From: Flavobacteriales bacterium
GTDB lineage: Bacteria; Bacteroidota; Bacteroidia; Flavobacteriales_D; Sanyastnellaceae
Direction: 5' to 3'
Length of the DNA stretch: 64,000 nt
NCBI GenBank assembly: GCA_029238785.1
Contig: JAQWFN010000117.1
Location: 1 to 64,000, forward strand
A model generated the notes under the pieces. It ran no database searches, had not been told where the DNA came from, and saw only the letters and a program-made list of their open reading frames with translations. A program made the translations under genes and the position numbers. Positions within the stretch are counted from its first letter, which is position 1; every line of letters begins with the position of its first letter. Positions 2,870 through 28,707 of this stretch are shown one piece after another.

Positions 2870-3955
2870 ATGGCAAAGAAAATCATCACAAAGAAGTCGG
2901 AAAGCTTCATGTACAAATACCTGAACAACGCCTCACCAACAGGTTTTGAGAGTTCAGGACAGCAAATATGGCTCGATTATATTCGTCCGTACATCGACGA
3001 AGAAATTATTGATACTTATGGCAGTGTAGTAGGTGTAATTAACCCAAAAGCCAAGTACAAGGTAGTTATTGAGGCCCATGCAGATGAAATCGCTTGGTTT
3101 GTGAACTACATCACAAAAGACGGCTTCATTTATGTGCGCAGAAATGGAGGTTCAGATCATCAGATTGCTCCTTCAAAGCGCGTTAACATTCACACAGACA
3201 AGGGCATTGTAAAGGCTGTTTTTGGTTGGCCAGCGATTCATACCAGAGGAGCAGGAGAAGAGAAGCCGCCTAAATTAGACAACATCTTTTTAGATTGTGG
3301 CTGTGCTACTAAGGAGGAAGTTGAAGCGCTTGGAGTGCACGTTGGCTCTGTGATTACTTTTGAAGATGAGTTGATGGAGTTAAACAAGCGTTTTTATGTT
3401 GGTAGAGCTTTGGATAACCGCATGGGTGGATTTATGATTGCTGAGGTTGCTCGTTTATTGAAAGAGAACAAGAAGACCTTGCCTTTTGGTTTGTACATCA
3501 CCAATTCTGTTCAAGAAGAGATTGGTTTGAGAGGAGCTCAAATGATTGCCGAGCGCATTCAGCCCGACGTGGCCATCATTACCGATGTTACACACGACAC
3601 ACAGACCCCGATGATCAACAAGATCAAACAAGGCGATTTGGCTTGCGGTAAAGGTCCGGTATTGACTTACGGACCAGCAGTACATAATAATCTATTGAGG
3701 AAGATCATCAATACAGCAGAAGACAACAAGATACCATTCCAACGTGCCGCTGCATCGAGAGCAACGGGAACCGACACAGATGCCTTTGCTTACTCCAATA
3801 AAGGTGTTGCAAGTGCGCTCATTAGTTTACCACTACGCTACATGCACACCACAGTGGAAAGCGTAAGTAAAGAAGACGTTGAGAATGTTATTCGTTTGAT
3901 TTACGAAAGCATTTTACGCATTGAAGACGGAGAGGATTTCAGATACTTCAGTTGA
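2870..3955 (+). CDS. M42 family metallopeptidase (aminopeptidase, FrvX/PepA-like)
   Basis: A 361-residue cytosolic zinc/cobalt aminopeptidase of the M42 family, which forms large tetrahedral complexes that trim peptides. Metal and catalytic motifs are present in order: EAHADEIAW (first metal His/Asp), GRALDNRMGG (bridging Asp), SVQEEIGLRGA (catalytic Glu pair), DVTHDT (Asp) and YMHTTVE (last His). The start ATG is followed by MAKKIITKKSE, and a -7-like box sits just upstream. Length is normal for the family. It is a single gene between divergent and convergent neighbours. Substrate preference (Glu, Leu or broad) cannot be read from the sequence. Confidence 0.92.
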   Translation: MAKKIITKKSESFMYKYLNNASPTGFESSGQQIWLDYIRPYIDEEIIDTYGSVVGVINPKAKYKVVIEAHADEIAWFVNYITKDGFIYVRRNGGSDHQIAPSKRVNIHTDKGIVKAVFGWPAIHTRGAGEEKPPKLDNIFLDCGCATKEEVEALGVHVGSVITFEDELMELNKRFYVGRALDNRMGGFMIAEVARLLKENKKTLPFGLYITNSVQEEIGLRGAQMIAERIQPDVAIITDVTHDTQTPMINKIKQGDLACGKGPVLTYGPAVHNNLLRKIINTAEDNKIPFQRAAASRATGTDTDAFAYSNKGVASALISLPLRYMHTTVESVSKEDVENVIRLIYESILRIEDGEDFRYFS

Positions 3956-3960
3956 GCTGT

Positions 3961-4362
3961 TTAAGCATTCGCCTCTACTAATCTTTTAAGCAGATATACA
4001 TCCAGTGGTTTTTCAAGAACTTTGAGAACCGCTGGATTTTTTTCCGCCCTTTCGATATCGTTTCTATCGATGCTCGAAGAGAGCATGAATACCATCAGGC
4101 TTTCTTGAATTGCAGGAGAGAGTTCCATAATCTTGTCCAAACATTCGAAACCTCCCATGATCGGCATTTGGATGTCGAGAAGGAGAATGTTTTGTTTGTC
4201 GGTAATCTGACTTTCGCTATCCCCAAGAAAGTCGATAACGTCTCTTCCACTGTTGAACGATGAGATGTTCTGGGAGAAGTTCGCAAGTTTCAAGAGCTTG
4301 GAATTGACAACGATATCGATATCGTTATCATCGACCAAGATAATTTGGAGTTCTTTTGACAT
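3961..4362 (-). CDS. Single-domain CheY-like response regulator
   Basis: A 133-residue stand-alone receiver domain with the acidic pair D11/D12 (ILVDDND), phosphoacceptor D63 (LLLDIQMP), a conserved Ser in MLSSS and the Lys in LEKPLD. There is no output domain, so it probably works by protein-protein interaction or as a phosphorelay intermediate. Its ATG overlaps the stop codon of the upstream receiver-kinase gene by one base (TAATG), which points to translational coupling. It is the last gene of the operon beginning at 10608. Likely phosphodonors are the two kinases encoded immediately upstream. Confidence 0.93.
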   Translation of the reverse strand: MSKELQIILVDDNDIDIVVNSKLLKLANFSQNISSFNSGRDVIDFLGDSESQITDKQNILLLDIQMPIMGGFECLDKIMELSPAIQESLMVFMLSSSIDRNDIERAEKNPAVLKVLEKPLDVYLLKRLVEANA

Positions 4363-22181: not shown

Positions 22182-22364
22182 GGCTATCGGCTTAAGTAGC
22201 CCAAAAAAAAATCCACATAAACAACTATAAATCAGACCAAAACAAATACAATCAATAATATTGGTTTGTTGTTCTTACTGCTTTTCGGCCAATTGTTTAC
22301 TCTGGCAAAGCGTTGTAAAACCCTTAACCCCCAGTATTAATAGGGGTTACTTAAGCCGATAGCC
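22182..22364. mobile_element. MITE-like element with 21-bp terminal inverted repeats
   Basis: The left end GGCTATCGGCTTAAGTA at 22182 is repeated in reverse complement at the right end (22348-22364). The match extends to 20 of 21 bases when the next four positions are included. The interior, about 140 bp, has no coding sequence and is AT-rich. The end motif is the same as at the IS1595-like element (25649-26662) and in the array at 28291-28707, so this looks like a non-autonomous relative. I see no convincing target duplication. It fills most of the gap between the YfhO-like gene and the DUF4834 gene. The left end also forms a hairpin (TTTTGGGCTA / TAGCCCAAAA). Confidence 0.6.
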
Positions 22365-25648: not shown

Positions 25649-25657
25649 GCTATAGGT

Positions 25658-26536
25658 TTACGTCGCAACAAACTTTTGATAGCGTAACCAAGGGTGCTTC
25701 ACCATAGCCTGCAAGAGTTCAAAGAATCCCAAATCTACTTCCTTACTTCGCCAATAACGATAATTGAACTCCCCACAATAATAAAAGAGGTGCCGTTTCG
25801 AAACGTGATGGTGAGTTGATTTTATCCAGGACTTGATTTTTACGGCATACTGTAAAACTAAATCCTCCTCTTTCGCAACATCTAAGACCATCCTTTCTTG
25901 CCAAGCATCACCTCGAGCCATTCTATGTTCTTCACGGCAAAGCTTTAATTCTATTTCCGTTAGCTCATTTATCTTAAAAACCTCAATGGATTTGGCCTCT
26001 CCAAAATGAACCAAGCTCTTGTTTGTAAATGGGTTCAAACCAGAAATAACGCTAATTCTAGTCGCTCTGTTGATTTGACTTTCCAACAACATTTTACGAT
26101 GTAGATTTCTTCCATGCCTAAGATTTAAAACCCCATCTTTTGCGCAAACAAAAGAACGCGTCCCAAACCTGGTCATAGCCTGCTGAACCTTCCGCTTAAA
26201 AAACCATGCTGTTTCTTGACATACGCCATAATTACGAGCTAACTGACACGATGAAAATCCTTCTGGATGAAGAACGAGATCATTCGTCATCAAAAAAGCT
26301 TTCATTAGAGGGAACTTGATCTTATGAAATAGGGTGCGGGCAGTTGCTGACTCGTCGTACCTGCATTTCGTGCATCTCCTGTGATGCCACTTTTTACCTA
26401 TGGAGTACTTTTCATTCCCGCAACGCCTGCAGCGATATCCTTTTCCCCATTTACAATAAACAAGAAATTCGAAGCACTCACGACCATTTTTAAAGTGCTT
26501 TGGAAATGGGGAAATATGTTTGTTTTCAGAGAACAT
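25658..26536 (-). CDS. IS1595-family (ISXO2-like) transposase, catalytic core apparently degenerate
   Basis: A 292-residue protein. The N-terminus is a transposase zinc ribbon (CRRC at 36-39, CTKC at 55-58) followed by the HTH-like segment seen in this family (SSCQLARNYGVCQETAWFFKRKVQQAM). The C-terminus HHHVSKRHLFYYCGEFNYRYW matches the ISXO2 tail. In between, the usual V-x-D-E-x-x-x-G-G motif and second Asp (DG) of the DDE core are not found; the equivalent position reads VCAKDGVLNLRHGRN. It is therefore probably inactive as a transposase or repurposed as a DNA-binding protein. The frame has no stop or shift over its whole length, which argues against simple decay. Confidence 0.8.
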   Translation of the reverse strand: MFSENKHISPFPKHFKNGRECFEFLVYCKWGKGYRCRRCGNEKYSIGKKWHHRRCTKCRYDESATARTLFHKIKFPLMKAFLMTNDLVLHPEGFSSCQLARNYGVCQETAWFFKRKVQQAMTRFGTRSFVCAKDGVLNLRHGRNLHRKMLLESQINRATRISVISGLNPFTNKSLVHFGEAKSIEVFKINELTEIELKLCREEHRMARGDAWQERMVLDVAKEEDLVLQYAVKIKSWIKSTHHHVSKRHLFYYCGEFNYRYWRSKEVDLGFFELLQAMVKHPWLRYQKFVAT

Positions 26537-26643: not shown

Positions 26644-26662
26644 GGTTACTTAAGCCGATAAC
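26644..26662 (+). repeat. End-motif copy R (right end of IS-like element)
   Basis: GGTTACTTAAGCCGATAAC; it shares ACTTAAGCCGATA with MITE copy B and array copies C3 and C4. It lies upstream of the alpha/beta hydrolase promoter. Confidence 0.75.
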
Positions 26663-28290: not shown

Positions 28291-28707
28291 AATTTGGCGA
28301 TGTAAGCCGATAGCTTGCTATTTCATGTATCACAACAAGGCAAAATTCAGCCTCTTCCGCGTCCCCAAAACACCTTCAAACCTGAGAACAAAAGACTCTT
28401 CGGCCCAAGGTAAATTTTGGCGACGTAAGCCGATAACTCGCTAAATCAAGCACCACAATGAAACAAACATCAAACCACTACCTCTTTGAATAAACCCTCA
28501 AACCTCCTCCTACCCTGATGGCTGCAACCCAAATCAGCCCAACATAAAATTTGGCGACTTAAGCCGATAGCACTATTTACTAAGCACTCCAACACTACTA
28601 GAAAAACAACTCCAGCAATCCATCACCCAAATTATAAACCACTGGCAGGATCATCTAAAACAATATCATAAACGCTGAATTAAAACTTGGCTACTTAAGC
28701 CGATAGC
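28291..28707 (+). repeat. Array of four direct copies of the end motif (C1-C4) with unique A/C-rich spacers
   Basis: Four same-orientation copies of a roughly 25-bp motif (core GGCGACTTAAGCCGATAGC) occur at 28291-28314, 28412-28437, 28546-28571 and 28682-28707. The spacing between copies is 123, 134 and 136 bp. The 97-110-bp stretches between copies are unrelated to each other, poor in G and rich in A and C on the plus strand, and contain no ORF of note. The motif equals the right end of the IS1595-like element and the MITE-like element. It is not a CRISPR array, because the spacers are too long and uneven. It could be a row of solo transposon ends, binding sites, or short RNA genes sharing a common 5' part. 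Confidence 0.8.

Follow-up and report, generated by a model that had tools for sequence, protein, structure and literature searches.

The A boxes of the window

The window, by which we mean the whole stretch of 64,000 nucleotides analysed here, carries a row of four copies of a short motif, which we call box A, 1.7 kb from a gene for a relative of IS1595-type transposases (paralog A). Further copies lie around this gene, where they form the ends of a transposase-like element, and in a separate MITE-like inverted pair:

22183 to 22201, minus strand: A box, left arm of the MITE-like inverted pair
22345 to 22363, plus strand: A box, right arm of the MITE-like inverted pair
25649 to 25667, minus strand: diverged A box, left end of the transposase-like element, containing a stop codon (GCGACG-TAA)
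25658 to 26536, minus strand: paralog A, a single-copy IS1595-type transposase relative of 292 residues
26644 to 26662, plus strand: A box upstream of the paralog A gene, right end of the transposase-like element
28296 to 28314, plus strand: A box 1 of the row, GGCGATGTAAGCCGATAGC
28419 to 28437, plus strand: A box 2 of the row, GGCGACGTAAGCCGATAAC
28553 to 28571, plus strand: A box 3 of the row, GGCGACTTAAGCCGATAGC
28689 to 28707, plus strand: A box 4 of the row, GGCTACTTAAGCCGATAGC

Seven copies of box A with at most three mismatches were found in the window, against none in 100 shuffles. The first-pass annotation had described the row as four same-orientation copies spaced by 123, 134 and 136 bp, and this is what we recovered, with starts at 28296, 28419, 28553 and 28689, all on the plus strand; the conserved stretch in the row extends to about 27 nt when the upstream TAAAATTTGG is counted. 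It had also placed the motif at 26644 and at the ends of the MITE-like element, where the copies at 22183 (minus), 22345 (plus) and 26644 (plus) bear it out, and had missed the left end at 25649 to 25667 (minus), which overlaps the stop codon of the reading frame at 25658 to 26536 (minus). Its suggestion of a row of solo ends is literally right, as the sequence of the box is that of the right end of the element. Two statements on the spacers hold in part. Most of the six spacer pairs are indeed unrelated in global alignment (four of the six not significant, and pair 3-4 at p ~0.02), but pair 1-2 retains clear residual similarity (p ~0.004); and the spacers of this row are G-poor as stated, but this is not a general property of the arrays, since the box strand of fillers at other places in the genome is often G-rich. 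The earlier observation of an array is thus right but understates the case: a genome-wide search excluded that the motif occurs only here, box A being found throughout the genome.

Box families, arrays and their paired genes

Box A is one of five related families, A to E, in this genome. They have in common a core, GGCGACnTAA, followed by a family-specific half that was read from the ends of paralogous transposase-like genes:

Family A: GCCGATAGC
Family B: ATGGATAAG or ATGGATAGC
Family C: GTCAATA
Family D (core TGCGACnTAA): GCCGGTCAT, GCCGGTTAT or GCCGGTCAA
Family E (core GAGACnTAA): nTATATAG

The census combines genome-wide pattern searches with selected stretches, picked mainly for containing boxes, and the comparison within the genus covers two species, both represented by draft assemblies. 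A strict pattern, GGCKACNTAANNNNATA, matched 42 sites in the genome of the window and 41 in the sister species, while the reversed control gave one or two; a relaxed scan of about 300 kb of the selected loci returned 174 boxes against 4 in the reversed sequence. Dozens of tandem arrays are spread through the genome, lying between convergent, tandem and divergent genes alike, and neighbouring boxes in the scanned loci share their orientation in 113 cases and oppose it in 3. Their layout is box(filler-box)n, with a near-fixed period typical of each array (for example 34-35, 38, 45-46, 57, 77, 80-81, 102, 124 or 123-137 bp), and some arrays combine families in a fixed order, A-B or C-D. Two fillers, F1 (TTTTTTCTGGGTGATGGG) and F2 (TTTCAGAGTGAGAATGAGAGCGGAGA), recur within arrays, between arrays and between box families; F2 is clearly present in the sister species also, and F1 in a related form. 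No target-site duplications were found at 18 elements and arrays (own versus permuted flanks, 4.94 versus 4.91 of 8 positions), and no conserved GTAG-like tag is common to the box families.

Some features of the arrays stand apart from this general layout. A family E array (G000:C26:9293-9516) alternates + - + - + with spacings of 44/60/43/60, while the arrays of the other families are direct. A helical phasing of the arrays was considered and dropped, as the periods, ranging from 34 to 157, are not consistently multiples of 10.5. In the viral contigs scanned, box A had no match and box B one, which we estimate to be near chance level.

Each family is paired with one gene, in that its half-site is the flank of one of the five transposase-like paralogs. 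In families A, C, D and E a box of the gene's own family spans the 3' end and the stop codon (in the D gene of the sister species a frame change now reads through this box), and upstream of the paralog genes come one to four further boxes of that family, oriented opposite to the 3' box; the family B gene has the upstream boxes and no recognisable box at its stop codon. Inverted ends surround the gene in the A, C and D elements, as they do in the relatives. The pairing extends to changes specific to one species, which are common to gene-linked and dispersed boxes: D boxes end in AT in 17 of 18 cases in the genome of the window versus AA in all 15 of the sister species, the variable base of C boxes is T in 7 of 8 versus G in 18 of 20, and B boxes end in AAG in 34 of 37 versus mainly AGC or AGG. 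Family E goes further, although this is one comparison of one event: 12 E boxes are found where the E gene is intact, in the genome of the window, and none in the sister species, where E has been reduced by deletion to its last ~60 residues and fused to an acyltransferase-like reading frame at the orthologous site (L131 local 3360-4040, G001:C35). As a control, the insertion sequences with intact DDH in two genomes of another genus had their end sequence at the element itself and at a few stray matches, with no arrays.

Five transposase-like paralogs

Each of the two genomes holds five diverged single-copy relatives, the others showing 39-52% identity to paralog A of the window. Nine of the ten reading frames are intact and form one clade with support 100/100. 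The paralogs are vertically inherited, each occupying the same neighbourhood in both species (the gene names for B, C and D were read by eye):

Paralog A: between carB and an alpha/beta-hydrolase/pcrB pair
Paralog B: beside a lolC-like gene
Paralog C: beside tex
Paralog D: beside a choice-of-anchor gene
Paralog E: beside a TonB receptor

All nine intact proteins retain a zinc ribbon, the motifs TLFHKxKF and QxTxWxFKRKVQ, and a C-terminal THxxxSxxHxxxYxxExxxR signature, and paralog A keeps the zinc ribbon, the helix-turn-helix (HTH) region and the C-terminal helices but has lost the catalytic DDE/H residues. No invariant Asp is left in the alignment of the nine, in which the triad columns are lost, whereas relatives outside the genus, where they can be aligned over the catalytic region, retain VDE, TDxW and H..K; the comparison group within IS1595 is the ISSod11-like group, with its third catalytic His. 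The NCBIfam IS1595 model (NF033547) and the Pfam zinc ribbon and DDE models all score below cut-off, the match to DDE_Tnp_IS1595 being weak and confined to the C-terminus with the rest of the DDE domain not recognised, and in neither the genome of the window nor the sister species does an IS1595 DDE domain exceed the Pfam cut-off. A sequence search of the Protein Data Bank gave nothing meaningful, and an AlphaFold model built from two sequences reached a mean pLDDT of 38.

The pattern of substitution differs along the protein, with a strong excess of third-position changes between orthologs in the N-terminal part. For the two A orthologs, codon positions 1/2/3 differ by 0.23/0.17/0.61 in the N-terminal part and by 0.57/0.41/0.70 in the much less constrained middle part, and the triad region is the fastest diverging part of the paralogs. 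This excess at third positions, strong N-terminally and weaker in the middle, indicates that selection acts much more strongly on the putative DNA-binding part than on the former catalytic core; judged by these substitutions, the predicted zinc ribbon and HTH region are under purifying selection. Gene-to-box pairing and N-terminal constraint are indirect indications that the paralogs may bind their cognate boxes.

Turnover and origin of the arrays

Arrays at several loci appear to be orthologous between the two species, judged by their flanking genes (L114/L124, L111/L127, L113/L129, L110/L141 and L020/L048-L047), and some orthologous arrays differ in copy number and fillers. The inverted pair at 22183-22363 corresponds to a -,+,+,+ arrangement in the sister species. 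The counterpart of the four-copy row, between the same gene pair, has two copies and a different, F2-like filler, which speaks against the spacers of the row being parts of one decayed larger element. At least four arrays are specific to one lineage and face a box-free intergenic counterpart (L118/L142, L112/L146, L126/L151, and L043/L046 versus L148), and the sister species also carries near-identical 124-bp tandem units. Taken together, the lineage-specific and the orthologous arrays show that arrays turn over and that they have moved or disappeared since the two species separated; a purely binding protein does not on its own account for this.

Two details of the sister-species loci may be added. 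Several of its contigs end in or beside near-identical 124-bp arrays of A and B boxes (L043, L046, L047, L048), so that true copy numbers are probably above our counts. One intergenic site holds tandem B/A boxes in the sister species and an inverted pair of E boxes in the genome of the window (L049 versus L150), as if some sites were preferred targets for different families.

The first-pass annotation had raised the possibility of binding sites for the transposase-like protein, along the lines of REP/RAYT systems. This is the best-supported reading, given boxes found genome-wide, arrays, and families whose sequences correspond to the flanks of five single-copy relatives, although RAYT would strictly be the wrong name for the system: the protein belongs to the IS1595 DDE type and no longer has the triad. 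We consider it probable, on the sequence evidence, that the boxes are dispersed, end-derived sites paired with domesticated, transposase-derived proteins that now probably only bind DNA; descent from a transposase combined with the loss of the cutting residues suggests a mobile element turned into a DNA-binding system. In this scenario an ancestral IS1595-type element in the genus would have lost its catalytic triad, and the triad-less element would then have been duplicated into the five single-copy, vertically inherited paralogs, each keeping recognition of its own end sequence. These end sequences would have been dispersed to intergenic sites, either by an ancestor that was active and has since disappeared or through a residual non-canonical activity, and would have grown there into box(filler-box)n arrays, probably because the boxes were sites of tandem duplication and unequal recombination, while arrays would have exchanged fillers with one another. 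At present the proteins would most likely bind the arrays in a sequence-specific way, affecting local chromosome structure or transcription, and most likely also bind at their own genes, where boxes lie upstream and, in most cases, over the stop codon.

Lost catalysis sits uneasily with dispersal after the split, and for this reason we retain, as unlikely but to be taken seriously, a REP/RAYT-like process that is still active, in which the proteins move boxes in trans through a non-canonical active site or a partner nuclease and arrays are being seeded now. Lineage-specific arrays opposite box-free orthologous sites are what it would produce; the near-identical 124-bp units, the lack of E boxes where E is broken, and the lack in either genome of an intact IS1595 transposase above the Pfam cut-off as an alternative agent are likewise in its favour. 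It has to contend with nine paralogs devoid of an invariant Asp, whose triad region diverges fastest, and with the lack of target-site duplications at the 18 elements and arrays tested. We think it rather improbable that the system is a relic, an IS1595 family once active and now dead, whose solo ends decay, owe their amplification entirely to replication slippage and recombination, and no longer have a role. Direct tandem arrays of fixed period are what slippage and unequal crossing over would naturally give, the spacers of the window have largely diverged, and no target-site duplications are left; but nine reading frames, the others at 39-52% identity to paralog A, have stayed intact with a strong third-position excess in the N-terminal domain, the boxes of a family remain uniform in each genome and follow the changes of the gene-linked boxes, and E boxes are missing from the species with the broken E gene. 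An array of acquired spacers or cassettes, CRISPR-like or integron-like, with boxes as repeats or recombination sites and spacers as captured DNA, is very improbable: the box-filler-box layout with a box at both ends, the constant spacing and the mosaic order of boxes and fillers resemble such arrays, but the recurrence of F1 and F2 within and between arrays and across families means that the fillers are not captured unique DNA, which largely refutes this reading, and inspection of flanking reading frames by eye revealed no integrase or cas gene. Finally, a cluster of small RNAs with a common 5' element, as the annotation had also suggested, or of structured RNA elements would fit an intergenic, conserved sequence adjoining gene 3' ends but is barely credible, given that an Rfam search gave no match, that 10 boxes from all five families fold no significantly better than shuffles (z from -1.9 to +0.8), and that arrays occur irrespective of the direction of the flanking genes.

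The REP/RAYT systems offer the closest parallel. Among bacterial transposases that were domesticated and retained along with their dispersed repeats they are the best known, and the same arrangement seems here to be of independent origin, derived from a DDE transposase whose catalytic residues have visibly gone. In REP/REPIN-RAYT systems (TnpA-REP, REPtrons) a single-copy, vertically inherited domesticated transposase has cognate dispersed repeats, which lie beside the RAYT gene and in intergenic regions, often in tandem (BIMEs); REP and RAYT co-evolve, and genomes without a RAYT gene have fewer repeats (PMC8266576, PMC8049555). The paralogs described here are likewise single-copy and vertically inherited, with cognate dispersed intergenic repeats, and the repeats are likewise absent from a genome without the intact gene, although here in family E only and in one comparison. 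Unlike the RAYTs, which are HUH (Y1) tyrosine enzymes with an active site, the proteins are triad-less IS1595-type DDE relatives, all of their domain matches being of the IS1595 type; unlike REPs, which are palindromes following a conserved tetranucleotide, the boxes show no significant hairpin and no such tag; their arrays are mostly direct rather than inverted pairs; and a genome holds five paralogs, with as many box families.

IS1595 insertion sequences are defined by their domains (zinc ribbon, DDE_Tnp_IS1595) and an 8-bp target-site duplication (PMC8101967). The system described here shares with them the zinc ribbon, the HTH region, the C-terminal signature (with a match to NF033547 that is below cut-off) and inverted ends flanking the gene, and the inverted pair at 22183-22363 resembles an IS1595 MITE. 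It differs in the lost triad, single copy number, vertical inheritance, lack of target-site duplications and ends amplified into tandem arrays, and, as regards mobility, in having five diverged single-copy paralogs in matching neighbourhoods and no near-identical copies; the IS1595 relatives in two other genomes (G007 and G026) show none of these departures. The system thus descends from an IS1595 insertion sequence but no longer meets the definition of one. The nearest tandem-repeat MITE that we found in the Bacteroidota is BrickBuilt of Porphyromonas gingivalis, considered together with 464/PgRS of that species; there, a MITE encloses a 23-bp minisatellite that has no spacers (PMC4596501). 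Common to these and our arrays are direct tandem repeats tied to MITE-like ends, but here it is the end sequence itself that is repeated, separated by fillers, with one cognate protein per family. The open-access papers searched yielded no description of this arrangement or of any IS1595-linked REP-like system.

A bolder version of the domestication scenario, which we offer tentatively from the sequence comparisons, is that the dead-DDE clade represents a set of multi-paralog, site-specific binders, each reading its own box code over dozens of self-rebuilding arrays, and hence an independent counterpart of REP/RAYT without transposition chemistry. Five paralog-box pairs in one genome are internal replicates, and such a system could separate proteins kept because their sites are bound from proteins kept because their repeats are copied. 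It also provides five natural specificity variants for reading how the zinc ribbon/HTH domain recognises DNA.

A minor observation concerns the region between the upstream boxes and the start codon, where most paralog genes carry a TTTGTGnATGA-like motif twice, at a distance of about 21 bp (e.g., L066, L071, L072, L075, L076, L067). The motif resembles a Bacteroidota promoter (TTTG / TAnnTTTG), and may also be a candidate operator.
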